A DNA stretch of 64,000 bases from Thermococcus sp. (GTDB lineage: Archaea; Methanobacteriota_B; Thermococci; Thermococcales; Thermococcaceae), in assembly GCF_027063845.1 (NCBI RefSeq), contig NZ_JAMOQU010000098.1, positions 1 to 64,000 on the forward strand. The letters run 5' to 3'. A model generated the notes under the pieces. It worked only from the letters and a program-made list of their open reading frames with translations, was not told the origin of the DNA and did not search any database. The translations under genes and the position numbers were made by a program. Below are positions 7,681 to 60,920 of the stretch, in pieces; within the stretch, counting starts at the first letter, position 1; each line of letters begins with the position of its first letter.

Positions 7681-8699
7681 TAAGCGAGCTCGTCAAGTCC
7701 TTCCAGCCCTACCGCGTCGTCGAGGGGAACTATCGGATAAGGCTCGACAAGAACGAGAGCCCCTACGACCTGCCAGGAGAGGTAAAGGAGAAAATCTTTG
7801 AGGAGCTGAGGGAGATTGCCTTCAACCGCTACCCCCACATAACCTCCATGCCAGCGAGGGAGGCGATAGCTGATTTCTACGGCGTCTCGCCGGACAACGT
7901 TGCAGTTGGCAATGGAAGCGACGAGCTTTTGAGCTACCTCGTGAGGCTCTTCGAGGGCAACCACATCGTGATTACCCCGCCGACCTTCGGGATGTACTCC
8001 TTCTACGCGAAGCTGAACAACGTTCCGGTTGTGGAAGTGCCCCTTCGGGAGGACTTCACGCTCGACGGAGAGGCCGTAGCGAAAAAGGCCAAAAACGCGA
8101 GGGTTGTCTTCATAGCGTCCCCCAACAACCCCACCGGGAACCTCCAGCCGGAGGAAGAGATAATCAGAGTCCTCGAAACCGGAAGGCCAGTGGTTCTCGA
8201 CGAGGCCTACGCGGAATTCGCGGGAAAAAGCCTCTGGAAGCTCATAGAAGAGTATCCAAACCTAGTAGTGTTGAGGACGTTCTCCAAGGCCTTTGGGATG
8301 GCCGGAATCAGGGTCGGCTACATGCTGGCGGGCGAGGAAATCGTCGACGCCCTCTACCGGATAAAATCCCCCTTCAGCGTCGGAATCATGACGATGACGG
8401 CCATAAGGGTCGCCCTGAGGCACGCCGACCTTATGGAGAAAACCGTTAGGAAAATCGTTGAAGAGCGCGAGAGGATGGGGAGAAAGCTCGGGGAGTTAGC
8501 CTACCCAAGCGACGCCAACTTCCTCCTCGTCAGACTCAATGCCTACGAAGAGCTTTTGAAGAGGGGCATAGTTGTTAGAAAGCTCTCCGGAAGGCTTGAG
8601 GGTCACATAAGGGTAACGGTCGGCAGGAGATGGGAGAACGACGCGTTTCTTGAGGCGGTGGAAGAGATAGCGGGTGATTCCGATGTGGGTGGTCTTTGA
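7677..8699 (+). CDS. hisC: Histidinol-phosphate aminotransferase HisC
   Basis: This is a class I/II PLP aminotransferase of 340 residues. The Schiff-base Lys lies in [16 protein letters not shown] (about residue 205), the PLP-contacting Asp in [11 protein letters not shown] and the Asn in SPNNPTGN; the N-terminal [12 protein letters not shown] is the usual HisC signature. It converts imidazole acetol phosphate to histidinol phosphate. It starts in an ATGA overlap with hisI and overlaps the following HAD gene by 17 bases. Confidence 0.95.
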
Positions 8700-9408
8700 C
8701 GTGGACGGGACGCTGATAGACGTGGGCGAGAGCTACGACTTGGCGGTTAAACTGACGGTGGAGTACTTCCTCCGGGCCTTTGGAGTGGAGCGGAAGGTTG
8801 AGCTCGAGTGGATACGAAAGTTGCGCTCTAAAGGTAGCTTTGGAGACGACTTCAAGGTGAGCGAGGCACTGATTCTCTTCTCGCTCGCCGGTGATGTTGA
8901 GACACTGGTGGAGGAGTTCCCGGCCGGAGAGGGCATAGAGTGGGTCCGGGAGCGGTTCGGGGTTGGAATGCACCGCGGGAGCATAGAAAGGGTCTTCAAC
9001 ACATTCTATCTCGGGGAAGCCTATCCCGGAAGACTCTTCGACTTTCCGGGCCTCTGGAGGAGGGAGAAACCGCTCATCGAGGCCGAGCTCTTAAGGAAAC
9101 TCTCAGAGGAGTTCAAGGTTGGGGTCGTCACAGGCAGGAGCGAGCTTGAGCTCAGGCTGGCTGAAAAAATCCTCGGCTTCCGCTTTGAAAGGGCCGTAAC
9201 GAGGGAGCTCGGTCTCAAGCCGAACCCCGACCTGCTCTGGGAGCTGGTGAATGGTGAAAGAGGGGTTTACGTCGGCGATACGCTTAACGACGAGCTCTTC
9301 GTCGAAAACTACAGGAGGAAATACGGCGACTTCGATTTCGTCATGGTCGGGCGGGACGTTGAGGACGTTTCGGAATTCGTTGAGAACCTGCTGGAGGGAG
9401 GAAAATGA
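8683..9408 (+). CDS. HAD-superfamily phosphatase, likely histidinol-phosphatase
   Basis: The protein of about 241 residues has the four HAD motifs: DVDGT (motif I, D nucleophile near residue 6), VVTGR (motif II Thr), a Lys in GLKPNPD (motif III) and VGDTLNDE (motif IV), with a helical cap between I and II. Every other his enzyme is present in this operon but no histidinol-phosphatase, and this gene overlaps hisC, so that reaction is the best guess. From memory, a HAD-type (DDDD) histidinol-phosphatase has been reported from a Thermococcus. ATG 8683 with GGGTGA upstream is preferred to GTG 8674. A general phosphoglycolate-type phosphatase cannot be excluded. Confidence 0.75.
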   Translation: MWVVFDVDGTLIDVGESYDLAVKLTVEYFLRAFGVERKVELEWIRKLRSKGSFGDDFKVSEALILFSLAGDVETLVEEFPAGEGIEWVRERFGVGMHRGSIERVFNTFYLGEAYPGRLFDFPGLWRREKPLIEAELLRKLSEEFKVGVVTGRSELELRLAEKILGFRFERAVTRELGLKPNPDLLWELVNGERGVYVGDTLNDELFVENYRRKYGDFDFVMVGRDVEDVSEFVENLLEGGK

Positions 9409-40078: not shown

Positions 40079-40130
40079 ATTGGCCCGTAAAAGGCCGTGT
40101 TGGGTTTCAGTGATTTCAACGGTGACACCG

Positions 40131-40652
40131 ATGCCAGGCGGAAGCTGGGAAAAGATAATCTCAATGACGAAGGATGGAATCAAGAGTATAGGCATGATTA
40201 AGCGAAAAGCCAAGCGCGGGAAAAAGATAGCCCTTCTCATTGATGGACCGAACATCCTGAGGAAGGAGTTTGGCATAAAGCTCGAGGACATCGTTGACGT
40301 TCTCGAAAGCATCGGGGACATCCGCGTTGCGAAGGTCATCCTCAACCAGTACGCCCCCCAGGGGCTCATAGAGGCGGTCTCGAACCAGGGGTTCGAGGCG
40401 GTTGTCGTTTCCGGCGAGACCGGGGTAAAGCTTGCCGTTGAGGCCATGCGCGAGATTTACAACCCCAACATAGATGTAATCGCCATCGCGACGCGGAACG
40501 CGGAGTTTCTGCCGGTTATCCTTAAGGCCAAGGAGAAGGGGAAGGAAACGGTAGTCATCGGCGTCGAGCCCGGCTTTTCGGTTGCCCTCAAGCACGCGGC
40601 CGATTACACAATAGTTCTTGAGCCCAAGAGGGAGGGGAGGGAAGAGGAGTGA
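40131..40652 (+). CDS. NYN-domain (TIGR00288-like) protein 1
   Basis: The protein of about 173 residues has the NYN/PIN-like fold of the LabA/TIGR00288 group: the first acidic motif is [14 protein letters not shown], then NQYAPQG, and the second acidic cluster is [16 protein letters not shown]. The usual catalytic-site Asp there (A-T-R-D-x-D/E) is Asn in this copy (TRNAEF). ATG 40131 follows GGTGACACC; upstream ATGs lack such a site. The neighbouring copy has the intact TRDADF. RNase activity is possible for the family, unproven here. Confidence 0.85.
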
Positions 40653-41152
40653 AAGAGAGCTTAATCAGGGTTTTCAGGCGTGAAAAGGAGCACCATGAAA
40701 AGGAACATCCTGGGCCAGAGGAGATAAGCGGTAAGAGCATCGGGCTCATAATAGACGGGCCGAACATCCTGAGGAAGGAGTTCGGAATAAAGCTCGAAGA
40801 CATAGTCGAGGCCCTTGAAAGGCTCGGTCGGATAAGGGTCGCGAAGGTCGTCCTGAACCAGTACGCTCCCCAGGGACTCATTGAGGCGGTCGTCAACCAA
40901 GGGCTTGAGCCGGTTATAGTAGCCGGTGACACCGACGTGAGGATAGCGATAGAGGCCATGGAGCTCATCTACAACTCCGATGTTGACGTTATAGCTCTGG
41001 CCACAAGGGACGCGGATTTTCTGCCCATAATCCAGGAGGCGAAGCGGAAGGGGAAGGAAACAATAGTCATAGGCACCCAACCCGGCTTTTCTGTGGCCCT
41101 TCAAAACGCGGCAGACTACGTCATCAAAATGGTTAGCAAGGTAGAGGAGTGA
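40649..41152 (+). CDS. NYN-domain (TIGR00288-like) protein 2
   Basis: This 167-residue tandem paralogue of the preceding gene overlaps it by four bases (GTGA). It carries the full acidic set [12 protein letters not shown] and [13 protein letters not shown], so unlike copy 1 it keeps the Asp expected at the metal site. The N-terminal 35 residues are charged (His/Glu/Lys rich) and differ from copy 1. A heterodimer of an active and an altered subunit is an attractive inference. Confidence 0.86.
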
Positions 41153-42548: not shown

Positions 42549-43073
42549 ATGAAGTACTTCGTCGTTGTTTCATACGATGACGATGCCGAGCGAAAGCGCG
42601 TTGATTACCTGCTCTCCAAGTGGGCGGAAAGGGCGGACGTTGAGAAGCCCAGGGGAATGACTTTCATAATCGAAACAGAACAGGAGAAAGAGTTCTTCGA
42701 GGAGCTGTTCTCCAGGATAGAGGGCAACCCTTCAGAGAAAGTCAGGATTTACCGCGTAACCGAGGAATGGCCCGAACTCAGGGAGCGGAGCGCGACGAGG
42801 GAATACCTGCTCGCGGAGGAAGAGGGCTTCGTTCGAAGGTTTCTAGCGTACCTGTGCTCCAAGCTCGGAGGAACGTTCAGTCCAGGAGAAGAAACTTGCG
42901 AGGTCTACACAAGGAAAGGAAGGGGTGTAATCCAGTTTTCCCTTAGAGGAACACCGAGGGGAACCGTTGTCAGGGTCACGGTCTCGGGCTACGGCGAGGT
43001 CGTTGAGTACCTCCTTTCGCGTGTGGATGAAGAGCTAAAACCTCTGGCGGGTGATTCCTATGGGACTCTTTGA
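42549..43073 (+). CDS. Uncharacterised protein, first gene of the kinase/ESCRT-like operon
   Basis: The 174-residue soluble alpha/beta protein starts with a strand pattern (KYFVVVSYDDDAERKRVDYLL) and later has a beta-rich segment (RGVIQFSLRGTPRGTVVRVTVSGYGEVVEYLL). It has no transmembrane helix and no family that I recognise. It overlaps the next gene by 14 bases, so it is translationally linked to the coiled-coil protein. It may be a cytosolic accessory or scaffold of the module; this is only positional inference. Confidence 0.65.
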   Translation: MKYFVVVSYDDDAERKRVDYLLSKWAERADVEKPRGMTFIIETEQEKEFFEELFSRIEGNPSEKVRIYRVTEEWPELRERSATREYLLAEEEGFVRRFLAYLCSKLGGTFSPGEETCEVYTRKGRGVIQFSLRGTPRGTVVRVTVSGYGEVVEYLLSRVDEELKPLAGDSYGTL

Positions 43074-44908: not shown

Positions 44909-45493
44909 ATGGGAATACGCGACGTTTTTGGAAGGAAGAGCACCGTCGAGAAGCTCTCACTTAGAGAGCTCCAAGAGGAGGAAATTAGGCTCAGGAACAG
45001 GCTTGAGAGGCTGAAGAAGGACATAAACGCCATAGAGAAGAAGAAAAAGGAGCTCTTCCAGCAGGGCATAGGCGCGGACAAGCTCAAGAAGAAGATGCTC
45101 GCTCAAGAAATCAAAAGCCTCGACATGGAGGAGAAGCTCAAGCTCAAGGAGTTCACGACGGCCCAGAAGCAGTACACCCTCATAAAGAACCTAATCGTCG
45201 TCAAGAAGTACGAGAAGGAGCTCCGCGAGGTGGGGGTCTGGGACAAGCTCAAGAAAGTCGAGCCCGGGGAGCTTGAGAAGGCCCTCATACGAATAAACCT
45301 CGACGGCAAGGAGTTCAACGAGATGGTGGAGAGCCTCAACAGGGTCTTTGAGATGGAGATAGCCGAGTTCGAGGAGGGCGAAGACGAGACCGAGAGGGAG
45401 CTCTTTGAGGCCTGGGCCCAGGTCGAGAGCGGTGAAGCGGAGCCGGACGAGGTTGTGGAGAAAGTTCTGAAGGCTGAGACGGAGGAGGAGTGA
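44909..45493 (+). CDS. ESCRT-III/CdvB-like helical protein, copy 1
   Basis: This 194-residue, almost purely helical protein has the charge layout of ESCRT-III subunits: a short N-terminal segment MGIRDVFGRK, a long basic helical hairpin (about 15-75; KKDINAIEKKKKELF, then LKKKMLAQEIKSL), a second helix pair, and an acidic C-terminal region (from about 145; EFEEGEDETERELFEAW). It is paralogous to the next gene. Its ATG has GGAGGTG upstream and lies one base after the previous stop. The adjacent MIT-bearing Vps4-type ATPase supports the assignment. Alternatively it is an unrelated coiled-coil protein. Confidence 0.7.
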   Translation: MGIRDVFGRKSTVEKLSLRELQEEEIRLRNRLERLKKDINAIEKKKKELFQQGIGADKLKKKMLAQEIKSLDMEEKLKLKEFTTAQKQYTLIKNLIVVKKYEKELREVGVWDKLKKVEPGELEKALIRINLDGKEFNEMVESLNRVFEMEIAEFEEGEDETERELFEAWAQVESGEAEPDEVVEKVLKAETEEE

Positions 45494-45494
45494 C

Positions 45495-46076
45495 ATGGGG
45501 CTCCTCTCAAAGTTTTTTGGACCGAAGAACCCGCTCGACGTTCCCCTCAAGGACCTGCTTGAGAACCAGATGAAGCTCGAAGCCCAGATTGAGAAAATCG
45601 AGCGCGAGCTCAGAGCGATAGAGGCCGAGATAGCGGAGCTCTTTGAGAGGGCAAAGAGAGCCAAGAGCAGGAGCGAGGAGCTCACGATAGCGACAAAGAT
45701 AAAGACCCTCAACAAGCGCAAGAAGAACCTCCAGGCGACGCACGCCCAGCTGAACAAGCAACTGATGCTCGTCAGCAACCTGCTCATAATCAAGGAGAAC
45801 GAGGAGCTCCTGAAGGGAACGCCAACCTGGGAGATGCTCAGGAAAATGTCTCCGAAGGAGCTTGAGGAGAAACTAATCGAGATGGAGCTCGACGCCAGGA
45901 ACTTCAACGAGAGCCTTGAGAAAATGCTCGGCATGACCGACAGAACGATAGGGGTTGAGGACTTTGAGGCCGACGAGGAGCTTGAGGAGATACTGAGCAC
46001 AATAAGGGCGGTCAAAGAGGGCGAGCTTGAACCGGAAGAGGCCACGAAGAAGGTCGTCGAGGAGGAGAAGGAGTGA
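45495..46076 (+). CDS. ESCRT-III/CdvB-like helical protein, copy 2
   Basis: The 193-residue protein starts MGLLSKFFGPKN, close to the amphipathic N-termini of eukaryotic CHMP/Snf7 proteins (MGLFxxxFG type). A basic helical hairpin follows (IEKIERELRAIEAEIAELF; IATKIKTLNKRKKNLQA, about residues 25-85), then LVSNLLIIKENEELL, and an acidic tail with EELEEILSTIRAVK, which resembles a type 1 MIT-interacting helix (leucines/isoleucines every 3-4 residues plus a terminal basic residue). It is paralogous to copy 1. I regard it as the best ESCRT-III candidate of the operon. Confidence 0.72.
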   Translation: MGLLSKFFGPKNPLDVPLKDLLENQMKLEAQIEKIERELRAIEAEIAELFERAKRAKSRSEELTIATKIKTLNKRKKNLQATHAQLNKQLMLVSNLLIIKENEELLKGTPTWEMLRKMSPKELEEKLIEMELDARNFNESLEKMLGMTDRTIGVEDFEADEELEEILSTIRAVKEGELEPEEATKKVVEEEKE

Positions 46077-47696
46077 ATGCCGAGAAGGAGCCTTGAAGAG
46101 GACTTCGTTCGGAGGCTCATCATCTCGATTTTCCTGATTGCCCTCCTTCACGGCTTCGGGTTACTCATATCGCTCTTCATATTCCTTCCGTGGATTGAGA
46201 GGTTCCTGAGAGAGACGGGCTCCTCGAAGCCCTATCCCGGGCCCAAACCTGTTCCGAGGCCGGTGCCTGAAAAACCGCACAGAAGGGAGCTGAATACTGG
46301 AAAATCCCTCAGTGAGGGGCTAATCTTTGAAGCGCCGAAAAAGCTAATCCAGGGAGCTGAGGCGCTGATAAAGGTCGGTTTCAGGAACAGGACAGGGAAA
46401 AGCCTTCGCGTCTCAATAGACCTGTCGGAGCTGGCCCTCTACGGAAAGCTGGAGAGGAGGACCCTCGACCTGTACCTCCTCCCTGGCGAGGAGAGGAGCG
46501 AGTACGTGCGCTTCGTGCCCTCGAAGGTTGGGAAGCACGCGCTTACCGTCCGCGTCCGCTCCGGGCCGTTTATGGGGAAGAAGGCCATTGAAATCGAGAT
46601 TGCCGGGGAAAAAGCCGAGGGCAACGGGTTGGAGGCCCTTCTGTCGAGATACGAGAGGGTCGAGCTAATTGGAGAGGGCGGCTTTGGCAGGGTCTACCGC
46701 GCCCTGAGGGACGGCCGGTGGGTCGCGCTCAAGGTCCCCCACGTCCTCAACGAGAGAACCGGAAAGCTCTTCCTGCGCGAGGTTTCCATATGGCGCGAGC
46801 TGAGGCACGGCAACATAGTGAAGCTCCACGACGCAAATCTGACGCCTTACCCCTACATAGAGATGGAGCTCTGCGACCGGTCGCTCGAAGACCTCGAGAA
46901 GCCCCTCCCGGCGGAGCGCGTGGCCGAGATAGCTTTTGAGGTAGCGGAAGGCCTGAAGTACGCCCATTCGAAGGGTATAATCCACCGCGACCTGAAGCCG
47001 AGCAACGTCCTCCTCAAGGGCTCCAAGCCGAAGATAAGCGACTGGGGGCTTGCGAAGGTTCTGTTCGAGAGCGGAACCACGACGGTAACGGCGATGACGC
47101 CCTACTACGCCTCGCCCGAGCAGATAAGTCCGTCGCGCTTCGGAGGGGTTGACGAGAGAACCGACGTATGGCAACTGGGCGTTCTCATGTACGAGCTCGC
47201 GACGGGGAAGAGGCCCTTCGAGGGAAGCGACTTCGTCGAGGTTGCCGGGAGGATAATCATGGAGGAGCCGCAGAGGCCGAGCGAGCTCAATCCGGAGGCG
47301 GAGCCCCTCGACGGGATAATCCTCCGCTGTCTGAGCAAGGAGAAGGAGAGGCGCTACGGAAGCGTTGAAGAGCTCCAGCGGGATTTGTCGGGAATCCTCG
47401 GCGGGAAGTACCGGGAAGAGCTCAAGAAGAGCGTCGAGCCATCGCGCTCGGCCTACTATGCGGGCCAGCTGTTCCTCCTCCACCTGAGGCTCGGGGACGC
47501 GAAGGAGGCCCTGAAGTACGCGAGGGACCTGCTGAGGTACGCGAGGGGGAGGGAGAGGGAAGAGCTGGAGAAGCTCATCGAACAGATTGAGCTGAGGGTT
47601 GAGGAGGGGCTCCCCGTTCCGAGGGAGCTCGTTGAGAAGGGTGAGGTTGTTGTTCACGGGGTTGGAGGCAATCCGTCCAATTATTCTCATTCTTGA
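46077..47696 (+). CDS. Membrane-anchored Ser/Thr protein kinase 1 (Ig-like domain, TPR-like tail)
   Basis: The 539-residue protein has one transmembrane helix (about 13-41), a Pro-rich linker, a beta-sandwich domain (80-180), a Hanks-type kinase domain (about 190-440) and a helical TPR-like tail (450-525). Kinase elements: GEGGFGRVY loop (199-207), Lys219 in VALKV, Glu235, HRDLKPSN (303-310) and SPEQ. The DFG motif is DWG (322-324). With a single helix, both sandwich and kinase should be cytosolic. ATG 46077 directly follows the previous stop, coupling it to the ESCRT-III-like pair. Confidence 0.9.
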   Translation: MPRRSLEEDFVRRLIISIFLIALLHGFGLLISLFIFLPWIERFLRETGSSKPYPGPKPVPRPVPEKPHRRELNTGKSLSEGLIFEAPKKLIQGAEALIKVGFRNRTGKSLRVSIDLSELALYGKLERRTLDLYLLPGEERSEYVRFVPSKVGKHALTVRVRSGPFMGKKAIEIEIAGEKAEGNGLEALLSRYERVELIGEGGFGRVYRALRDGRWVALKVPHVLNERTGKLFLREVSIWRELRHGNIVKLHDANLTPYPYIEMELCDRSLEDLEKPLPAERVAEIAFEVAEGLKYAHSKGIIHRDLKPSNVLLKGSKPKISDWGLAKVLFESGTTTVTAMTPYYASPEQISPSRFGGVDERTDVWQLGVLMYELATGKRPFEGSDFVEVAGRIIMEEPQRPSELNPEAEPLDGIILRCLSKEKERRYGSVEELQRDLSGILGGKYREELKKSVEPSRSAYYAGQLFLLHLRLGDAKEALKYARDLLRYARGREREELEKLIEQIELRVEEGLPVPRELVEKGEVVVHGVGGNPSNYSHS

Positions 47697-47710: not shown

Positions 47711-48874
47711 ATGCCCGTTGATTTGACAGGTCCGCTTATGGCGTCCTTCAGAAGGGCCAAGAAGGCCTATGAAAAGGCCCTGGCCGAGGGCGATTACGAG
47801 ACCGCCAGGAGAAAGGCCCTTGAGTGCGCGAGGATTCTCAAACAGCTCGCCAAGCACGACCCCTACGGTAGGAGTTCCTACCTGGCAAAGGCAAGAAAGT
47901 GGGAAGACCTTGCCAAGGGTCTCGAAGAAGGAAGGATTCCGAAGAGGGAGGTCAAGGTAACCTCAGAGGGAAGCGACGAGGATGAGCTAAGAACCTACGT
48001 CATGGGACTCATGGCAAGGTCAAACGTCAAATGGAGCGACATTGGAGGCCTTGAGGACGTTAAACGACTCCTCATGGAAACGGTGGTCGTCTCGGCACTC
48101 CAGAGGCCGGAAGCGGTTCAGCCCTGGAAGGGTATTCTCCTCTTCGGCCCCCCGGGAACCGGAAAGACCCTGCTCGCTTCTGCTGCCGCCGGAAGTTTAA
48201 ACGCAACCTTCTTCTCGGTCAAAGCCAGCAACGTCCTGAGCAAGTACTTCGGCGAGTCCGCGAAGATAATCTCGGCCCTCTACGAGGTTGCCCGCGAGAA
48301 GGCCCCGAGCATAGTCTTCGTGGATGAGGTAGATGCCCTCACAACCCGGCGCTCCGGCGAGACGAGCGAGGCCAGCAGGAGGATGCTCTCGACGTTTCTA
48401 GCGGAGCTTGACGGCTTTCAGGATAAAGGTAGCGACGTGCTCGTTCTAACCCTCGCGGCAACCAACACCCCCTGGGATTTGGACGAGGCGGTTCTCTCGC
48501 GCTTCCCGAGGAGGATTTACGTCCCTCTACCGGACGAGAAGGCCACGAAGGAGATAATCAAAATCAACACGCGCGGGCTCGACATAAGCAGGCTCGACTT
48601 GGATGCAATAGCTGAGGAGAGCGTCAGGCGCCTGTACTCGGGAAGGGACATCAAGAACCTCTGCCAGGAGGCGGTATGGAACATGATTCGCGAGGAGAAC
48701 AGAGACCTCCACAAGCTCGCCGAGCTCCCATACGAGGAGCTCAAAAAGAGGTCGCTCAGGACAAGACCGCTTGAGATGAGGGACTTCGAGGAGGCCTTCA
48801 AGAAAATTAGGAGCCCGCTGACGAGGCGAGATGTCGAGAGGTACGAGAAGTGGGCGGAGGAGTTTGGGGGATGA
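47711..48874 (+). CDS. Vps4/CdvC-like AAA ATPase with MIT-like N-terminus
   Basis: The 387-residue single-ring AAA ATPase has Walker A GPPGTGKT (146-153), Walker B IVFVDE (201-206), sensor-1 TN (251-252), the arginine finger region SRFPRRIYVPLPD (Vps4 has RRFxxRIYIPLP) and a C-terminal helix DVERYEKWAEEFGG, very like the last helix of Vps4. Residues 8-75 form a three-helix segment (AKKAYEKALAEGDYETARR; YLAKARKWEDLAKGL) with the pattern of MIT domains. No Vps4 beta-domain insert is seen. ATG 47711 follows GGAGGTG; TTG 47693 is unlikely. It should remodel the ESCRT-III-like proteins of the operon. Confidence 0.85.
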   Translation: MPVDLTGPLMASFRRAKKAYEKALAEGDYETARRKALECARILKQLAKHDPYGRSSYLAKARKWEDLAKGLEEGRIPKREVKVTSEGSDEDELRTYVMGLMARSNVKWSDIGGLEDVKRLLMETVVVSALQRPEAVQPWKGILLFGPPGTGKTLLASAAAGSLNATFFSVKASNVLSKYFGESAKIISALYEVAREKAPSIVFVDEVDALTTRRSGETSEASRRMLSTFLAELDGFQDKGSDVLVLTLAATNTPWDLDEAVLSRFPRRIYVPLPDEKATKEIIKINTRGLDISRLDLDAIAEESVRRLYSGRDIKNLCQEAVWNMIREENRDLHKLAELPYEELKKRSLRTRPLEMRDFEEAFKKIRSPLTRRDVERYEKWAEEFGG

Positions 48875-51198
48875 GACGACTTACGGTCGTGATGGTCTTT
48901 CTTCTCCTCTTAAAGCCTGCCCTGGCCGTTACAATCGGGATAGACCTCTCCCACGGCGAGAACCCAAACGGCCTCACACCAGTGACCTATGAGAATCAGA
49001 CGCTCGCCCCGGGAATCCTCGAAACGCTCAGCCAGTACACCTTCGTCTACTTTGGAAACGAGAGCTATCAGGAAGAGCTGGGAATCCGCTGGCTGGGCAG
49101 GTCAATAACTCCGGGCCTGCTGGAAAACGTTGACGTCCTTATAATCGGCCAGCCGACTGCCAACTTCTCAAACACCGAAATCTTGGCCATAAGGGAGTGG
49201 TTCTACTCCGGAGGAAAAGTTCTCTGGGTCGCCGGCGATTCCGACTATGGAAACGGCGTAAAGACTCAGAGGATAGTGAACGGCCTGCTTGAAGCCCTCG
49301 GGGCACCCCTGCGCCTTGACCTCTGCTCCGTTGAAGACCCGGTGAGCAACGCGGGAAGGTCCTACCGTATCATAGCCTACAACAGGCCAAGCAACGATAC
49401 CCCTTACAGGTTGCTCTTAATTCAAGGGGTAACCCATGGTGTCCTCGCGCACGGGCCCGGGCCGGTGGCACTCTTCGTGAACGGCACTTGGAAGCCCCTG
49501 AGGGATGGAAACAAGCCTTCGGGGGTTTACATAATCCTCCGGACGAGCAAAGATGCCCAAATCGTTGAGAACAATGACCCCCTTGGGAAAGCGTACAGGG
49601 CGGGAGAAACCGGGGAATTCCCAATAGCCGCGGCATGGGTGTGGAGTTCAGGCAACAAACGGAGTGTTCTGATAGTCAGCGGTGAGACGCCCGTTGGAGG
49701 CTACACCCCCATGTGGGTCAGCCAGTACTACGGTATCAAGCTCGACGGGCCAACCTTTGTCTCGAACGTAATCCACTGGGGCGTTACCGTTGCCTCACGT
49801 TCCCCGGAAAACCGGAGCTCACCATCAACAACGTTCACGACGACCGCATCTCCAAAGAACAGCCAGATTGTCCAGCCGTCGAGTTCCCGGCCTAAATCAA
49901 CAACGGGTTTAGACGACGTAGAAAAGAGCTCGAAGGTACCAGTCCTCCCTCTCGCGCTCGGAGGCATTCTGGTGCTCCTTGTCATTGGGCTTGCCCTCCT
50001 GAAGGGCAGGAGCGGGGGTGAAAAAAGGGCCAACCTCAACGTCCCCGGATTTCCGCCGGAGCTCTTGGACAGGTACGAGCCTCTTGAGTTCCTCGGGGAG
50101 GGCGGTTTTGCCAAGGTCTTCAAGGTCAAACGCAAAAAGGACGGCAAAACAGTCGCCCTAAAAATCCCGCACCTAACTGAGAAGTCCAGGAAATCCTTCA
50201 CCAGAGAAGTTCGGGCCTGGAGCCTGCTGGAGCATCCGAACATAGTAAAGCTCTACCGTGCGGAGGAGAAGCCGATACCATACCTCGAGATGGAGTTCGT
50301 TGAGGGTGCTGAGGTTGATGGAAAGCTCGTTAGAACGCTCGAGGAACTACCAAAGCCCGTTGATGAGGAAACTGCCCTAGAACTCATCAGAGGCATCGCA
50401 GAGGGATTGAAGCACGCGCACTCGAAGGGCATAATCCACAGGGACTTAAAGCCCGGAAACATCCTCCTGAAGGCCAACTTAACGCCAAAGATAACCGATT
50501 GGGGATTAGCCAAAATCGGAACACATTCAACGACCACCACCTCGGGGGTAACGGTTCTCTACGCCGCGCCGGAGCAACTTGACCCTGAAACCTACGGGCG
50601 CACCGACCACAGGACGGACGTCTACCAGCTCGGCCTAATCTTCTATGAACTCCTGACAGGAAAACTGCCCTACGGGGGGAACAGCCCCGCAAGTGTAATC
50701 GCAAAGATTCTCAACCCAGAAACCAAGCCAAAACCGCCGAGTGCCGTTAGGCCAGAGCTTGCGAAGTACGACGGGCTCTTCGAGAAGTTGCTGGCGAAGA
50801 GGAAGGAAGACCGCTACGGAAGCGTTGAGGAGTTCCTGGAGGACCTCAAGCTCTTGAGGAGGCTTGAAGGAGAAAGGACGGACCTCAAGGGCCAGATTGA
50901 GGAGCTCAAGAAAACCATCCAAGTAACGACGGACCGGTCGGAGGTTCAAAGGCTCGTCAGGAAACTCGTTGAAGGACTCGGAAGGAACGCGGTCCTTTCG
51001 GCGAGGCTCAACGACAAGGCAGGCCTGATTAGTGCGCTTGAGGAGCTCAAGGAGTTCACACGGGAAGAAAGGGGAGAGGTTGAGCGGGCGATTGAAACCG
51101 TCGAGCTCCTCCTAAGGGAGGGTCTGCCGATTTCCCCGGAACTCGTTGAGAGGGTGGAGGTTCTCGTTGACAGGATTAAACGGGAGGTGGAGAGATGA
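48871..51198 (+). CDS. Receptor Ser/Thr kinase 2 with GIFT-like extracellular sensor
   Basis: The 775-residue protein has a signal peptide (cleaved after PALA, about residue 19), an extracellular domain (20-310) homologous to the secreted protein at 20460-21557, a Ser/Thr-rich stalk, a transmembrane helix (about 356-379) and a cytosolic kinase with GEGGFAKVF (409-417), Lys431, HRDLKPGN (523-530) and DWG (543-545), then a helical tail. It is the membrane-tethered, signalling version of a surface protein. Its start overlaps the ATPase stop (ATGA). Kinase-coding DNA is nearly identical in blocks to that of kinase 3. Confidence 0.92.
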   Translation: MRRLTVVMVFLLLLKPALAVTIGIDLSHGENPNGLTPVTYENQTLAPGILETLSQYTFVYFGNESYQEELGIRWLGRSITPGLLENVDVLIIGQPTANFSNTEILAIREWFYSGGKVLWVAGDSDYGNGVKTQRIVNGLLEALGAPLRLDLCSVEDPVSNAGRSYRIIAYNRPSNDTPYRLLLIQGVTHGVLAHGPGPVALFVNGTWKPLRDGNKPSGVYIILRTSKDAQIVENNDPLGKAYRAGETGEFPIAAAWVWSSGNKRSVLIVSGETPVGGYTPMWVSQYYGIKLDGPTFVSNVIHWGVTVASRSPENRSSPSTTFTTTASPKNSQIVQPSSSRPKSTTGLDDVEKSSKVPVLPLALGGILVLLVIGLALLKGRSGGEKRANLNVPGFPPELLDRYEPLEFLGEGGFAKVFKVKRKKDGKTVALKIPHLTEKSRKSFTREVRAWSLLEHPNIVKLYRAEEKPIPYLEMEFVEGAEVDGKLVRTLEELPKPVDEETALELIRGIAEGLKHAHSKGIIHRDLKPGNILLKANLTPKITDWGLAKIGTHSTTTTSGVTVLYAAPEQLDPETYGRTDHRTDVYQLGLIFYELLTGKLPYGGNSPASVIAKILNPETKPKPPSAVRPELAKYDGLFEKLLAKRKEDRYGSVEEFLEDLKLLRRLEGERTDLKGQIEELKKTIQVTTDRSEVQRLVRKLVEGLGRNAVLSARLNDKAGLISALEELKEFTREERGEVERAIETVELLLREGLPISPELVERVEVLVDRIKREVER
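50059..50522 (+). repeat. Kinase-domain DNA shared with 55127-55590 (copy 1)
   Basis: Three blocks, 50059-50169, 50284-50367 and 50443-50522, are identical or nearly so (one mismatch noted in the first) to the co-linear blocks in the next kinase gene, including third codon positions, while the sequence between them diverges. Both regions are 464 bases long. This points to recent gene conversion between the kinase genes. Confidence 0.85.
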
Positions 51199-51959
51199 GG
51201 CTAATACTGCCCGAAAGCCCACACATGGAGTCCAGCGGGGCCGGAACTGACTTCGTTTACGGGATAACCCACGTTGGGGGACGGAAACACAACGAGGACG
51301 GCCTGCTCATCATGAAGCTCCCCGACGGCTACCTGCTCGCAGTCGCGGACGGACTGGGCGGTCACAACGCCGGGGAAGTCGCTTCTAGGCTGGCCCTGGA
51401 AACCCTTGCGGGGGTCTTTGAAAGGGAGTACGTTGAAGGCCTTGAAGAAGACCTTCTCGCGATTCTCCTGAAGAAGGCCCACGAGGTTGCCCACTCCATT
51501 GTTAGAGAACGGGCAAGGGGACCACTTGAGGGAATGGGGACGACCCTCGTCTCGGCTGTAGTTAGGAGAAGGACCGTTATCGTTGCCAACACCGGCGACA
51601 GCAGGGCGTACCTGGTTTCCGGGGGGAAACTCGTCGCGAGGACGCTCGACCACTCACCACTTCAGGAGCTCGTTCTCATAGGGCAGGTCAGCGAGGAGGA
51701 GGTCATGTACCACCCGCTCAGGAACAGGGTGAGCTCAGCCATTGGAAGGCACCTAATGGTTGACCTCTACCGCTGGGAAGCCGGACCCGGCCACATCCTC
51801 CTTCTCAGCACGGACGGTCTTCACGACTATGTCTCAAAGGAAGAAATCCTGCGGGCGCTCATCCCTGGGAAAACGGCACGTGACCTCGCCAAAACCCTCA
51901 TGGAAAGGGCCCTGACTGTCACTGAAGACAACGTAACGGTGGTGGTGTGGAGATGGTGA
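51195..51959 (+). CDS. PP2C-family Ser/Thr protein phosphatase
   Basis: The 254-residue protein has all PP2C metal-site motifs: KHNEDG (31-36), VADGLGGH (50-57), GMGTTLVSAVV, ANTGDSRAYL, LLLSTDGLHD and EDNVTVVV near the end. It is cytosolic (no signal or membrane helix) and removes phosphate from Ser/Thr, so it is the natural antagonist of the three kinases in this operon. It overlaps the kinase genes on both sides by four and seven bases. An in-frame ATG at 51225 is an alternative start. Confidence 0.94.
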   Translation: MRLILPESPHMESSGAGTDFVYGITHVGGRKHNEDGLLIMKLPDGYLLAVADGLGGHNAGEVASRLALETLAGVFEREYVEGLEEDLLAILLKKAHEVAHSIVRERARGPLEGMGTTLVSAVVRRRTVIVANTGDSRAYLVSGGKLVARTLDHSPLQELVLIGQVSEEEVMYHPLRNRVSSAIGRHLMVDLYRWEAGPGHILLLSTDGLHDYVSKEEILRALIPGKTARDLAKTLMERALTVTEDNVTVVVWRW

Positions 51960-54900
51960 ATGCAAAGGCTATGCTCGTTATCGTATTGCTATTATCTTCC
52001 CTCTTTCCGCTAAGTCCAACCCTTGCTCAACCTATCCAGGGGGATGAGCTTAAAATCGTGTACCTTGCTGCCCAGGGTAGTCTCTTTATGGGTGTCTTCA
52101 ACCCGTCCCCGAGCGGAATGACCGACGTTTACACCCACCGCATCTGGTACTTCCTCAACGACCCGCCCTACGTGATGGGACCCGACGGAAGCTATCACAG
52201 CTACCGCTGTCAGCTTGTCAGTGTCAATTACAACGTTCAGGTTCCGGACGATGCCGTAATCTGGAACGACACCCTCGGCGAGTGGACCTCCCCATACGCC
52301 GGCAGAACAGCCAAGAGTGCCGTCACCTGGAAGTGCGGTCTCGGAACCTGGGTTGACGGTCAGAAGATAACCCTCGCCGACTACTTATTCGCCTACGCAA
52401 TGGACTGGGAATGGAGCCATGAAGGGGGAGCGTACTACGACCAGAGCTGGAGCGCCAGCGTGGCCGGCAAGCTCCAAGGAATCTACGGTCTCGAGGTGAA
52501 AGCCGTCACATCTGATTACGTTGAATTCACGGTCTACCAGGATTATGCAGTTCCATACAGCAGGTGGGCCACCGCCGTTAACTACGTTCCATACCCTGGG
52601 TTCCCCTGGCAACTCTATTATGCAACCTCCGAGCTCGTGGCAAGGGGATACGGCGGCAAGATGTTCTCGTGGAGCTCGAATCCCACCAATGGGTACCAGC
52701 TCAACCTGATAGACGAGGAACAGATGGAGTACATTTCGGGCATGCTCTCAAGGCTAAAGGATGAAGCTCCTATTCCGGGCCCCCTGTCGGAGCTTTCAAG
52801 CGTTCTCGGAAAATGGGGTCTGGACTACTACCACTCCGGCCTTCAGGATGCAGAAAGCGGGTACTCGGCCCTGATAGGCTGGATTTCAAACCACAAAAAT
52901 GCCCTCGTGACCAATGGACCGTACTACGTTGATGACTACGACGCTGAGGATATGAAGCTCGTCCTCAAGCTCGCGAACAACAGAAGGGTCGGGTTCCCGG
53001 ACACCGTTAACGGTAAGACCCTTCCCTGGGAGCCGTACTGGAGAGAGATTGACGTTTACGGCGTTCTCAACGACTATACGGCTATTCTCTCCGTTGCTAA
53101 AGGCGAGTACGACCTGTACTGGTTCACCAGGCCGTATAGTACTTTGTCCAGTGTGGTTCAGGAATACGGCAAGAACATCAACCTGATTAAGGCTATCTTC
53201 ACCTGGTGGAGCATCAACCTCAACCTTGCAGGAGACTCCACGACAGGCCTCGTGGAAACCTCCAACGGAACCTGCTTTAACCCGTTCGCGCTCCGTGAGG
53301 TCAGGTTCGCCCTTAACTGGCTCATCAACAGGCAGTACATCGTCAGCCAGGTCCTCCAGGGAAGCGGTGCTCCAATCTACGGCCCAAATCCAACGGGCCA
53401 AGTTAACGCACACGAGAATTACGTAACCGTTGCGAAGGCTATGGGAATAACCTCTCAGGGTGACGAGGCCTACGCCATCAAGATGATTGACGAGGCCATG
53501 ACTAGGGCATCCTCGGAACTCTCAGACTTAGGACACACCCTTGAGAAAAGGGACGGTGTCTGGTACTTCGACGGTCAGCCGGTTACCGTGAAGATTATTG
53601 CTCGTATCGAGGACGAGAGACTTGATGAGGGCAAGTACGTTGCTCAGGTACTCCAGAAGGCCGGCTTTAAGGTTGACCTCCTCCAGTGGCAGAGGAGCCA
53701 GGCCAGCAGGATGGTTTACAGTAGCGACCCCAAGGAGCTTCAGTGGCACGTTTATACAGAGGGTTGGGTCGTCAGCGGAATTCAAGACATCACGGACCTC
53801 GCCTGGGACTTCTGGTACTACGGCAGTTACGTCGCTCCAAATTGGGGTTCCAACTACCACAACCCAGTAACGGTCAGAGACGTTCTCAACGTTATCGCCA
53901 GCGGTGACGTTGCCAGGTTCATCAGCGAACTAAACCTCAAGTACTACAACACTCCGAATAAGCTCAAGCCTCTCCTCGACTGGACAGGCTACGACCTTGC
54001 TAACTTACTCGCCTACGCTAAGTGGACAAAAAACGGATGGACAGTGAGCGTATGGAGCCTTGACCAGTTCTGGGACCTCTACAAGCTCGCCTACGCACTC
54101 CACCTCTACAACGCCCCCAGAATCTACACGGCCGAGGTGTGGAACTTCTACATCACCAACAAAAGGGTGAAAGTTGGAATCCCCGACCCAGTTACAGGAC
54201 TTGGAAGCTTCCTTGCCGTCCGTTCGCTTGAGCCCGCTGAAACATCGGTGTCAGGGGGAACAACAGGAACAGAAACAACGACTTCAGCATCTCCACAGGT
54301 GCAGAATGATAGGGGAACAATCGAAGTAGTCTCCACACCTGCAGGCGCTGAGGTTTACGTTGACGGAGGCTACCAGGGAATAGCACCAATAAACGTCAGT
54401 GTATCCCCCGGAACTCACAGGGTTCAAGTGAAGATGCCTGGCTATGAGGAGTACTCGACGACGGTCACGGTAGATGCCGGAAAAACCGTTGTTCTAAACG
54501 TAAACCTGGAACCCAAATCCGGAACCCTCGTAGTTGACTCAACACCCTCGGGAGCCAGCGTTTATGTGGACGGTACCTACCGCGGGACTACTCCCCTGAC
54601 CGTTGAGCTACACCCGGGCCAGCACACGATAAACGTGACTCTCGAAGGCTACAAGCCATACTTGGCAACGGTCAATGTTCCTCCAGGTGAAACCGTAAAG
54701 ATAACGGCGAAGCTTGAGAAGAAAATCGCGACGGGGACGGTTTGGATAAATTCTCAGCCCACAGGAGCGGACGTCTACGTTGACGGCACGTGGCGTGGGA
54801 CAACACCGCTGACGCTCACCCTTCCACCGGGTACCCACACGATAGAAATCCGGAAGGAGGGCTATCAACCGACCAGAAAAACGGTTGAGGTTGCCCCAGG

Positions 54901-56290
54901 AGAAGAAAAGAAAATAACCCTAACCCTCGCGGTGGTGACCTCTCAGGATACCCAACCGAAAACAACCAGCGAATCCACGCCGGCCAACGCAGTTCCAAGG
55001 AAGGCCATCGCAGTGGTTCTGGCCGTGTTCATCCTTGTTGGGGCAGTGCTCCTCCTCAAGCGCTCGCGCTCTGGAGGAAAGACCCAAAATGAGCCCTCCA
55101 AGGGTTCAATTGAGGGCTTCCCGGCCGAGCTCTTGGACAGGTACGAGCCCCTTGAGTTCCTCGGGGAGGGCGGTTTTGCCAAGGTCTTCAAGGTCAAACG
55201 CAAAAAGGACGGCAAAACAGTCGCCCTAAAAATCCCGAGGATTGACGAGAAAACCAGCAAGACCTTCCTCCGTGAGGTTTCAACGTGGTTCCAGCTCAAC
55301 CACCCCAACGTCGTCAAGCTCTACGACGCGGACATTTTACCCGTTCCCCACCTCGAGATGGAGTTCGTTGAGGGTGCTGAGGTTGATGGAAAGCTCGTTA
55401 GAACGCTCGAGGAACTACCAAAGCCCGTTGATGAGAAAACCGCACTGGGACTCATAAAGGGCATTGCGGAAGGCCTAAAACATGCCCACTCAAAAGGCAT
55501 TGTTCACCGCGACTTAAAGCCCGGAAACATCCTCCTGAAGGCCAACTTAACGCCAAAGATAACCGATTGGGGATTAGCCAAAATCGGAACGATGAGCTCG
55601 GGAAGGAGCGTGATGGGCTACACCCCCCTCTACGCCGCGCCGGAGCACCTGATGCCGAGCAAGTTCGGAAACACCGACCACCGGACAGACGTATGGCAGT
55701 TGGGGACGATTTTCTACGAGCTACTGACCGGCAGGGTTCCGTTTGAGGGCTACACATACGAGGAGGTCTTTGGCAAGATAACCGACGAGAACTACCGCCA
55801 TAAGCCGCCCTCCGATTTCAACCCGGCACTGGCAAAGTACGATGGGCTCTTCGAGAAGTTGCTGGCGAAGAGGAAGGAGGACCGCTACAGAAGCGTTGAG
55901 GAGTTTCTGGAAGACCTCGAGAAGCTCAGGGAGAGCGAGATAAGGAAGCGGGAGCTCGAGTTTCGGGTTGAGGAGCTGAAGAAAACCCTCGCAAGAAGCG
56001 TAGAGGCTCTGAAGAGGAGCAAGACCGCCGAGGAAATCAGGGAGAACAGCAGGCTCGTAGTCCAAACTCTCTCGAAGCTCGCTTTAGCCTACGCGGAGCT
56101 CAACAGGAAGGCAGAGCTTCTCAACACCCTGAGCGACCTGAAATTCTATACAACCCAGCACAGAGAGGAGCTTGGGAGGGCAATTGAAGCCCTTGAGCTC
56201 ATGATTAAAGAAAACCTGCCCGTAAGAGAGGACTTCGTTGAAAGGCTCAAGGTGCTCCTTCACGAAATAGAGCGTGAAAACGGGGTGTGA
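51953..56290 (+). CDS. Receptor Ser/Thr kinase 3: oligopeptide-binding domain, three PEGA repeats, kinase
   Basis: The protein of about 1445 residues has a signal peptide (SPTLAQ, about residue 24), a complete SBP_bac_5-type oligopeptide-binding domain (25-760; DAVIWNDTLGEWTSP, TLADYLFAYAMDWEW, ALNWLINRQYIVSQVLQGSG), a Thr-rich linker, three PEGA repeats (about 789-995; PAGAEVYVDG, PSGASVYVDG, PTGADVYVDG), a transmembrane helix (about 1019-1039) and a kinase with GEGGFAKVF (from 1071), HRDLKPGN (Asp 1187) and DWG, plus a helical tail. An importer-type ligand-binding protein is thus wired to a kinase, with no transporter genes nearby. ATG 51953 with GGTGGTG is preferred to GTG 51947. Confidence 0.93.
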   Translation: MVNAKAMLVIVLLLSSLFPLSPTLAQPIQGDELKIVYLAAQGSLFMGVFNPSPSGMTDVYTHRIWYFLNDPPYVMGPDGSYHSYRCQLVSVNYNVQVPDDAVIWNDTLGEWTSPYAGRTAKSAVTWKCGLGTWVDGQKITLADYLFAYAMDWEWSHEGGAYYDQSWSASVAGKLQGIYGLEVKAVTSDYVEFTVYQDYAVPYSRWATAVNYVPYPGFPWQLYYATSELVARGYGGKMFSWSSNPTNGYQLNLIDEEQMEYISGMLSRLKDEAPIPGPLSELSSVLGKWGLDYYHSGLQDAESGYSALIGWISNHKNALVTNGPYYVDDYDAEDMKLVLKLANNRRVGFPDTVNGKTLPWEPYWREIDVYGVLNDYTAILSVAKGEYDLYWFTRPYSTLSSVVQEYGKNINLIKAIFTWWSINLNLAGDSTTGLVETSNGTCFNPFALREVRFALNWLINRQYIVSQVLQGSGAPIYGPNPTGQVNAHENYVTVAKAMGITSQGDEAYAIKMIDEAMTRASSELSDLGHTLEKRDGVWYFDGQPVTVKIIARIEDERLDEGKYVAQVLQKAGFKVDLLQWQRSQASRMVYSSDPKELQWHVYTEGWVVSGIQDITDLAWDFWYYGSYVAPNWGSNYHNPVTVRDVLNVIASGDVARFISELNLKYYNTPNKLKPLLDWTGYDLANLLAYAKWTKNGWTVSVWSLDQFWDLYKLAYALHLYNAPRIYTAEVWNFYITNKRVKVGIPDPVTGLGSFLAVRSLEPAETSVSGGTTGTETTTSASPQVQNDRGTIEVVSTPAGAEVYVDGGYQGIAPINVSVSPGTHRVQVKMPGYEEYSTTVTVDAGKTVVLNVNLEPKSGTLVVDSTPSGASVYVDGTYRGTTPLTVELHPGQHTINVTLEGYKPYLATVNVPPGETVKITAKLEKKIATGTVWINSQPTGADVYVDGTWRGTTPLTLTLPPGTHTIEIRKEGYQPTRKTVEVAPGEEKKITLTLAVVTSQDTQPKTTSESTPANAVPRKAIAVVLAVFILVGAVLLLKRSRSGGKTQNEPSKGSIEGFPAELLDRYEPLEFLGEGGFAKVFKVKRKKDGKTVALKIPRIDEKTSKTFLREVSTWFQLNHPNVVKLYDADILPVPHLEMEFVEGAEVDGKLVRTLEELPKPVDEKTALGLIKGIAEGLKHAHSKGIVHRDLKPGNILLKANLTPKITDWGLAKIGTMSSGRSVMGYTPLYAAPEHLMPSKFGNTDHRTDVWQLGTIFYELLTGRVPFEGYTYEEVFGKITDENYRHKPPSDFNPALAKYDGLFEKLLAKRKEDRYRSVEEFLEDLEKLRESEIRKRELEFRVEELKKTLARSVEALKRSKTAEEIRENSRLVVQTLSKLALAYAELNRKAELLNTLSDLKFYTTQHREELGRAIEALELMIKENLPVREDFVERLKVLLHEIERENGV
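55127..55590 (+). repeat. Kinase-domain DNA shared with 50059-50522 (copy 2)
   Basis: The co-linear blocks 55127-55237, 55352-55435 and 55511-55590 match kinase 2 almost base for base. The first block covers the P-loop to the catalytic Lys, the third the HRD-to-DWG catalytic segment. Substrate-facing stretches between them differ. Confidence 0.85.
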
Positions 56291-56293
56291 ACC

Positions 56294-56842
56294 ATGAAGT
56301 TCTGGAAATCCAAAGAGGAGAAAGAGATAGAAAGGAGGATACGGGCCAAAAAGGCCAAGATGGCCCTGAAACAGTACATAAACAACCTCGAAGCCTTAAA
56401 GCGCAGGGTCTTCCTCCAGGGGAAGGAAGCGGCGAAGCTCGGCGACGAGGAACTGCTGAGGAGAAGCGCCGTAAAGTACCTTGTCCTTGAGAATCGAATT
56501 AAGGAGGCAAAGCGCCTTCTCCTCCTCATGGAGGAAGCAGAAATCCAGAGGGAACTCGTTAAGGTCTCGGCCGAGTTCCTCCGCTTCAGCAGGGACATCG
56601 TTGAGAGCATTGCAGAGGGGCCTGGAGCAGAGGACGTTGCCAAGATGCAGGTCGAGTTCGAGAAGGCGATGGCGAAGGTTGAAACCCTCGGCGAGGCTCT
56701 GAGTTCCATGCTCGACGTAACGAGCGAAAGCATCCTGAGCGGAAACTTTGACGAAAAAACGATAAAAGAAGCAGAGGCGTTCTTCGACGTGGAACCCTCT
56801 GGAGAAAGGCTCAAGGAGATTGAGAAGGCTATGAGGGCTTAG
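56294..56842 (+). CDS. ESCRT-III/CdvB-like helical protein, divergent third member
   Basis: The 182-residue all-helical protein has a strongly basic N-terminal half (MKFWKSKEEKEIERRIRAKK; YINNLEALKRRVFLQG; RIKEAKRLLLL) and an acidic second half (EDVAKMQVEFEKAM; EKTIKEAEAFFDVE). It ends in ERLKEIEKAMRA, an amphipathic helix at the extreme C-terminus where ESCRT-III proteins carry MIT-interacting motifs. It has the length and charge asymmetry of the two ESCRT-III-like proteins but little direct identity. ATG 56294 lies three bases after the kinase stop, so it is the last gene of the operon. Confidence 0.65.
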   Translation: MKFWKSKEEKEIERRIRAKKAKMALKQYINNLEALKRRVFLQGKEAAKLGDEELLRRSAVKYLVLENRIKEAKRLLLLMEEAEIQRELVKVSAEFLRFSRDIVESIAEGPGAEDVAKMQVEFEKAMAKVETLGEALSSMLDVTSESILSGNFDEKTIKEAEAFFDVEPSGERLKEIEKAMRA

Positions 56843-60119: not shown

Positions 60120-60920
60120 TTGTGGGCCATTTACAAAAAGCAGTTCGCAGAATGGCTCTCTGACCAAATAACGCCAGTAGTGAAGAAAGACTACCTTAAA
60201 GCGCTCGAAGTTTTCTTTGGTCGGCACTCATTAAAGACGTACGAGGACCTAGAAAAGGCCCTCAAGGCGGAGAACTACAACGACAGAGTAGTGAAAGGCC
60301 TCCGCAAGTTCACAACGTTCCTCGAAGAAAAGCACGTGATTGACTACCACCTCGCAGACGACTGGAGAAGAATCATGAAAATCAAGCGGAAGTCAGGAGT
60401 CCGGGCCATTTTCGTGACTGACGAGGAAATCAGAGAAGCATACAAAGCCATTAAAGAGCGCGGTGAAGAAAAGCTCACGCTCTTTAAGCTTTTGGTGTTC
60501 TCAGGAATAAGACTGACTCACGCGGTCCAGCTGGTGAACACCTTCAACTGGCAGAACGTTTACATCGTGAACGAGAAGGTCGCCAGATACCCACTGTTCG
60601 CATTCTCCCGCGGCAAAAAGAGGGGCTTTTGGGCCTATGCCCCAAAGGAGTTCTACGAGCTCCTTGAGCCGATGAATGTCAACTATGTGAGCGCCAAGGA
60701 TTGGGTGAGTCATGGAAAGGTTTCTGCGAACACAATCCGGAAGTGGCATTACACTTTTCTCATTCGTCAGGGCGTTCCTGCCGACATCGCTGACTTCATC
60801 CAGGGACGTGCAAGCCAGCGCGTTGGGGCGACTCACTACCTGAACAAGACCCTCCTCGCCGACGAGGCGTATTCTCGGATTGTGGATGAGCTAAAGAAGG
60901 TTCTGGAGGGTTCAAAATGA
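60120..60920 (+). CDS. SSV-type tyrosine integrase, C-terminal part int(C)
   Basis: The 266-residue fragment contains a SAM-like/core-binding region and the catalytic domain with the active-site Arg in SGIRLTHAVQL, a later Arg/Lys/His cluster RKWHYTFLIRQG and the nucleophile region GRASQRVGATHYL. The reading frame is open back through the tRNA sequence to 59994 without an ATG, as expected when integration within the integrase gene separates int(N) from int(C). The TTG at 60120 is only a nominal start. The fragment is probably not expressed as an active enzyme until excision restores the gene. Confidence 0.88.
   Translation: MWAIYKKQFAEWLSDQITPVVKKDYLKALEVFFGRHSLKTYEDLEKALKAENYNDRVVKGLRKFTTFLEEKHVIDYHLADDWRRIMKIKRKSGVRAIFVTDEEIREAYKAIKERGEEKLTLFKLLVFSGIRLTHAVQLVNTFNWQNVYIVNEKVARYPLFAFSRGKKRGFWAYAPKEFYELLEPMNVNYVSAKDWVSHGKVSANTIRKWHYTFLIRQGVPADIADFIQGRASQRVGATHYLNKTLLADEAYSRIVDELKKVLEGSK

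Follow-up and report, generated by a model that had tools for sequence, protein, structure and literature searches.

A Vps4-type ATPase within a probable 'Main'-type euryarchaeal ESCRT operon of Thermococcus

The locus described here raises the question of what a Vps4-type ATPase, a homologue of the archaeal division protein CdvC, does in a euryarchaeon that carries FtsZ. The window, i.e., the whole stretch of DNA that was analysed (64,000 nucleotides from Thermococcus sp., contig NZ_JAMOQU010000098.1), contains the gene as the sixth of ten that share the + strand between 42549 and 56842 and are spaced by −25 to +14 bases. The operon consists of the following genes.

42549..43073, + strand: 174-aa protein, probably of arCOG08177 type (position and description match PMC10936438)
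43051..44907, + strand: 618-aa coiled-coil protein, probably of arCOG09748 type (coiled-coil matches only)
44909..45493, + strand: E3a, ESCRT-III-like protein of 194 aa, start taken at the ATG at 44909 (hhalign to E3b)
45495..46076, + strand: E3b, ESCRT-III-like protein of 193 aa (profile versus CdvB)
46077..47696, + strand: Ser/Thr protein kinase 1, STK1 (Pfam Pkinase, 162 bits)
47711..48874, + strand: Vps4-type AAA ATPase of 387 aa, with the ATG at 47711 and the stop codon ending at 48874
48850..51198, + strand: Ser/Thr protein kinase 2 (Pfam Pkinase, 164 bits)
51195..51959, + strand: PP2C-type Ser/Thr phosphatase (Pfam PP2C_2, 61 bits; NCBIfam Stp1, 180 bits, below cut-off)
51947..56290, + strand: 1447-aa kinase with an SBP_bac_5 solute-binding domain, three PEGA repeats and a Ser/Thr kinase domain (Pfam)
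56294..56842, + strand: E3c, third ESCRT-III-like protein, 182 aa (hhalign to E3b)

The ATPase gene is real and conserved. Relatives of its product, ranging from 99 to 50% identity, are found in Thermococcales, Archaeoglobi, Methanococcales, Methanosarcinales, and Methanomicrobiales. The alignment of 32 relatives has a mean column identity of 69%, with Walker A and B, sensor 1, the arginine finger, and the aromatic pore loop being invariant or nearly so. The protein can be divided as follows.

Residues 1-75: MIT-like domain, followed by a linker and the AAA core
Residues 146-153: Walker A of the AAA core
Residues 177-183: pore loop SKYFGES
Residue 206: catalytic E206
Residue 252: sensor N252
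Residues 263-268: arginine fingers SRFPRR
Residues 341-386: Vps4_C

According to Pfam, the protein contains AAA (133.8 bits) and Vps4_C (34.0 bits versus a cut-off of 21.3). The NCBIfam model of CdvC, the TACK cell-division equivalog (NF041006), covers residues 25-385 with 216 bits and thus stays below its equivalog cut-off of 650 bits. The Vps4_C match is not exclusive to Vps4, since two Cdc48 proteins of the same genome also pass the cut-off (27.9 and 27.4 bits). The earlier note had regarded the element RIYVPLP (residues 268-274) and the C-terminal helix (C-terminus DVERYEKWAEEFGG) as hallmarks of Vps4. Both are indeed present, but neither is specific to Vps4, as the whole Vps4/katanin/spastin clade has them: human katanin p60, for example, reads RIYIPLP and ends with DIERYEKWIFEFGS. 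These strings therefore support the clade and not Vps4 itself. As for the AlphaFold2 model, residues 140-262 of the AAA core have pLDDT <50, which makes most of the core unreliable, and no conclusion is drawn from the modelled core or hexamer geometry.

To place the protein, a maximum-likelihood tree of 50 AAA domains was used, comprising 18 Main-type sequences (including the window Vps4), 2 solo Vps4, 15 CdvC, 2 eukaryotic Vps4, 3 katanin/spastin, Cdc48 D1/D2, and PAN; yeast Vps4, VPS4B, katanin, spastin, and one Sulfolobus CdvC were represented by PDB-chain sequences. The 40 Vps4/CdvC/katanin/spastin rows, the window protein among them, are split from Cdc48 and PAN at 100/99, and a tree constrained to unite the window clade with Cdc48 D2 is rejected (p-AU 0.003). 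A two-residue PG-type insert at the arginine finger is absent from the window protein and its clade and present in Cdc48 and PAN. The assignment to the Vps4/CdvC type made by the earlier note is thus borne out at the level of the "meiotic" clade; a firm position outside this clade, which that note had regarded as the refuting outcome, is not observed in this tree of 50 AAA domains. Within the clade, the free tree weakly joins the window Vps4 to the eukaryotic rows (92/83). Unions of the window clade with CdvC, eukaryotic Vps4, and katanin/spastin are not rejected (p-AU 0.13, 0.18, and 0.205, respectively).

In every Main-type and solo sequence compared, SRF replaces the form with two arginines before F or L (RRF or RRL) that is found in CdvC, eukaryotic Vps4, katanin, and spastin. 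Of this pair, the window protein retains a single arginine (S263-R264); S263 and R264 are invariant in the 32 relatives, and the codons for S263-R268 are located at 48497-48514 (+) of the window. No earlier description of this Arg-to-Ser change was found in a non-exhaustive literature search.

The N-terminal part, in which a three-helix MIT pattern had been recognised at residues 8-75, was modelled by AlphaFold2 with the 32-relative alignment. Helices are predicted at 6-25, 29-49, and 51-72 with pLDDT of about 82-91. According to VIA-align, residues 3-75 of the model match the MIT domain of Sulfolobus solfataricus Vps4 (2w2u_A) with Z 11.6, rmsd 2.2 Å, and 19% identity over 73 of 75 residues; a second MIT structure, 2v6y_A, has Z 11.4. 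Z values below approximately 13 are unspecific for helical bundles, and an IFT-A segment reaches 11.2. The end-to-end match of the predicted structure to the same-position domain of a homologous protein is, in our judgement, more than a chance arrangement. Pfam reports no MIT match for the full and N-terminal sequences of Vps4 and related proteins, and when the profile of the N-terminal domain was initially aligned with that of TACK MIT, the score did not exceed those of shuffled controls. Once divergent paralogues are included, the global score versus TACK CdvC MIT exceeds 60 of 60 column shuffles, and the local score is weak, being above all but one of the 60. Fold and position in the model identify the N-terminus as an MIT-type domain; sequence alone would not. 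MIT-like domains are also carried by katanin and spastin, so this fold alone cannot separate a Vps4 from a katanin/spastin reading.

The earlier note had also placed the gene among ESCRT-III-like genes, which the profile comparison, synteny in other orders, and co-occurrence all support; it had overlooked E3c. E3a and E3b are paralogues (hhalign 99.7%), and their joint profile aligns with TACK CdvB, i.e., proteins encoded beside TACK CdvC genes, over 163 columns with a score of 40.5 (best shuffle 17.6). E3c aligns with E3b over 141 columns (hhalign score 34.2, shuffled maximum 20.9) and gives no signal against CdvB directly. The Pfam Snf7 scores of E3b (17 bits versus a cut-off of 27.3) and E3c (12.7 bits) are both below cut-off. 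Searching PDB with the ESCRT-III-like profile yields no convincing sequence relative (CdvB 9s9j at E 1.8). The model of E3b (pLDDT 82) has a long helical hairpin followed by short helices, and its fold matches include Asgard ESCRT-IIIB (Z 9.1), the CHMP4B hairpin (8.8), and Snf7 (8.7), with unrelated helical hairpins tying. The predicted fold is hence compatible with ESCRT-III without being diagnostic. The tandem E3a-E3b pair occurs near Main-type Vps4 in Thermococcales, Archaeoglobi, Methanococcales, Methanosarcinales, and Methanomicrobiales.

No clear MIT-interacting motif (MIM) is seen in the C-terminal tails of the ESCRT-III-like proteins of the window. In Methanothermococcus, ESCRT-III-like C-termini (L049, L051, L052, L053, L054, and L059) carry MIM1-like strings such as DxELFKRLEKE and DEDFERKLKKL, which may represent a lineage-specific MIT-binding tail. 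As a set, these C-termini are limited to Methanothermococcus and not significant (6 matches versus a shuffled maximum of 6).

Among the remaining genes of the operon, the 174-aa protein has no Pfam match, and its homologues lie near Vps4/ESCRT-III in Methanothermococcus, Methanosarcina, and Archaeoglobi; the 618-aa gene adjoins it in other orders too. The family arCOG08177 is described as an inactivated Cas2-like domain with a DUF3568/TBP-fold domain, and arCOG09748 as having a C-terminal winged helix (PMC10936438). Kinase 2 and the 1447-aa kinase each have an apparent membrane segment, as read from sequence. The N-terminal region of kinase 2 weakly resembles ABC_transp_aux (Pfam, 25 bits, below cut-off), and the 1447-aa protein, which combines a family-5 solute-binding domain, PEGA, and a kinase, may be a kinase that senses nutrients or peptides. 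In one relative, the equivalent cluster (L127, G034:C1:1553000-1572000) has approximately five kinase genes; the number of kinases thus differs between species. Just upstream of the operon (window 40080-41152, +) lie two adjacent similar genes of NYN-domain type, the first scoring 77.5 bits, which are probably a tandem duplication. Approximately 3 kb downstream (window 60120-60920, +) there is a Phage_integr_3 integrase of archaeal virus/plasmid type (180 bits), possibly part of an integrated element.

The distribution was considered in 37 genomes of the genus, including the source genome. Main-type Vps4 is present in 21 of the 37. E3a/E3b occur in 20 of these 21 and in 0 of the other 16 (Fisher p 1e-9, shared ancestry uncorrected), and E3c is found in 18 of the 37, in every case together with Main-type Vps4. 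FtsZ is detected in all 37, and the source genome contains two FtsZ above the family cut-off along with a third, more distant homologue. The description of the source as an FtsZ-type euryarchaeon was therefore correct, and the archaeon almost certainly divides with FtsZ. Main-type Vps4 is missing from 12 genomes that are at least 95% complete, two of which keep only the solo Vps4. The genus can thus do without the system, which, with FtsZ present throughout, is not required for division.

In several relatives a second Vps4, approximately 60% identical, directly follows E3c; the window operon has no such gene next to E3c. The source genome carries, on another contig, a solo Vps4 that is approximately 50% identical to the window Vps4 over the aligned part and has no ESCRT-III neighbour. 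The coordinates are as follows.

Relative G005: E3c at 250777-251331, second Vps4 at 249630-250775
Relative G015: E3c at 898571-899125, second Vps4 at 897421-898569
Source genome, L076 (G000:C9:26000-44000): solo Vps4 at 7961-9046, − strand, between moeA-like and serS genes

In the 50-domain tree, solo and second Vps4 are joined at 100/99 on a long branch. Based on the tree and gene order, we infer that the solo Vps4 is linked to the E3c-associated second Vps4. A solo, long-branch Vps4 of Thermococcales was noted in the 2024 survey (PMC10936438).

The patchy presence within one genus could also be read as the mark of a phosphorylation-gated module for anti-virus defence or stress-related membrane repair rather than for vesicle or cargo sorting. 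Such a module would fit the presence of several Ser/Thr kinases, whose number differs among relatives, of the accompanying phosphatase, and of the archaeal-virus-type integrase about 3 kb downstream (60120-60920). PADLOC, however, yields only generic AAA and kinase matches, no defence genes are recognised in the operon, and patchiness by itself is weak evidence; we thus consider this reading unlikely.

It is also rather improbable that the protein is a meiotic-clade unfoldase acting in the mode of katanin or spastin, i.e., severing or unfolding another polymer or a membrane protein, with a regulatory or incidental operon link to the hairpin proteins. Among single-AAA entries of PDB, katanin matches the whole core and tail best (226 bits over residues 85-386), it has the pore loop SKY-GES and the C-terminal helix in common with the window protein, and the union with katanin/spastin is among those that the tree test leaves standing (p-AU 0.205), although in the best tree the window clade is not sister to these two alone. 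Arguing against this mode, tandem ESCRT-III-like genes constantly accompany the ATPase gene in five archaeal groups, and E3a/E3b are perfectly nested in Vps4-bearing genomes. A second division machine beside or instead of FtsZ, like CdvC in Sulfolobus, is highly improbable: the CdvC homology (NCBIfam, 216 bits) and the presence of ESCRT-III-like partners would suit it, but FtsZ is kept in 37/37 genomes, at least 12 near-complete ones have no Main-type Vps4, and the 650-bit CdvC equivalog cut-off is unmet.

Thus, the gene product is quite likely the Vps4 ATPase in a complete ESCRT system of the euryarchaeal 'Main' type, one that remodels membranes and does not serve cell division. This reading builds on computed Vps4-clade membership, the MIT fold, the neighbours' ESCRT-III homology, operon structure, co-occurrence, and dispensability in an FtsZ-bearing genus; the Vps4 identity follows from the ESCRT-III-like neighbours together with the MIT fold, as the hallmark strings give the clade only. 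From these results we infer that the MIT domain binds the tails, that polymers are disassembled, that phosphorylation exerts control, and what kind of membrane event is involved. By homology, the MIT domain would dock on the tails of E3a, E3b, and E3c and recruit Vps4, whose AAA hexamer would thread subunits of ESCRT-III through its pore, past the aromatic loop SKYFGES. Subunits would be pulled in this way from membrane-bound ESCRT-III polymers, so that a membrane remodelling other than division is driven or recycled. The kinases and the PP2C phosphatase of the operon would probably act as an on-off phosphorylation switch for the system. Such control is suggested because the kinases, two of them with probable extracytoplasmic parts, and the phosphatase are co-transcribed with the ATPase, and it was also proposed by Makarova et al. 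2024 (PMC10936438).

Regarding the membrane event, the 2024 survey takes the presence of FtsZ to mean that the system acts in vesicle formation or sorting rather than in division (PMC10936438). In T. kodakarensis, disrupting any of three Vps4-like genes left vesicle production unaffected, according to unpublished work cited in a review (PMC10117752). Tentatively, Thermococcales might have a two-module, signal-gated ESCRT, in which Vps4-1 would act with E3a-E3b and the second Vps4 with E3c, while surface-sensing kinases and the phosphatase would regulate remodelling in cells dividing by FtsZ; the solo Vps4 would then be a relocated, fast-evolving second ATPase.

Archaeal ESCRT work mostly concerns division in Sulfolobales or the Asgard ancestry of eukaryotes. 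Thermococcales are an order with genetic tools, where the role of ESCRT can be asked in cells whose division does not need it, and the kinases and phosphatase of the operon make phospho-control of ESCRT directly testable. A 2021 review described Thermococcales as having no ESCRT-III homologues (PMC10117752), which the window operon corrects, in line with the 2024 survey. Since Vps4-ESCRT in Thermococcales was published in 2024 (PMC10936438), the finding is less surprising than the earlier note held.

In comparison with known systems, katanin p60 and spastin belong to the same AAA clade as the window protein, katanin being almost identical in its C-terminal helix and pore loop, but they sever microtubules, whereas the partners of the window Vps4 are ESCRT-III-like. 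Eukaryotic Vps4 (yeast Vps4 and human VPS4B) shares the clade, Vps4_C, and the MIT-AAA order; the window protein differs by the pore-loop Tyr in place of Trp, by SRF in place of RRF, and by substrates and regulators that are archaeal and partly kinases. Sulfolobales CdvC, or archaeal Vps4 (4lcb, 4d80, 2w2u, and 2v6y), has the same MIT-AAA-Vps4_C layout, an MIT fold matching over 73 residues, and no arginine-finger insert. It differs from the window protein in sequence (216 bits for the latter versus the 650-bit cut-off, SKYFGES versus SKWLGEA, SRF versus RRF) and itself serves both division and vesicle budding.

The closest system was described by Makarova et al. 2024 as the 'Main' euryarchaeal ESCRT (PMC10936438), with Thermococcales named among its carriers, and the window system is most probably this already known one. 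It has Vps4, ESCRT-III-like genes, membrane-associated Ser/Thr kinases, a phosphatase, and a retained FtsZ, and its 174-aa and 618-aa genes probably correspond to arCOG08177 and arCOG09748, judging by position, description, and neighbourhood. Apparent differences from the 'Main' system of the survey are that the window operon has three ESCRT-III-like genes, that one of its kinases joins PEGA repeats to a solute-binding domain, and that the solo Vps4 of the genome groups with the E3c-adjoining second Vps4 of relatives. The apparent additions to the survey are E3c and its pairing with the second Vps4, the co-occurrence and dispensability seen across the genus, and the arginine-finger Ser.
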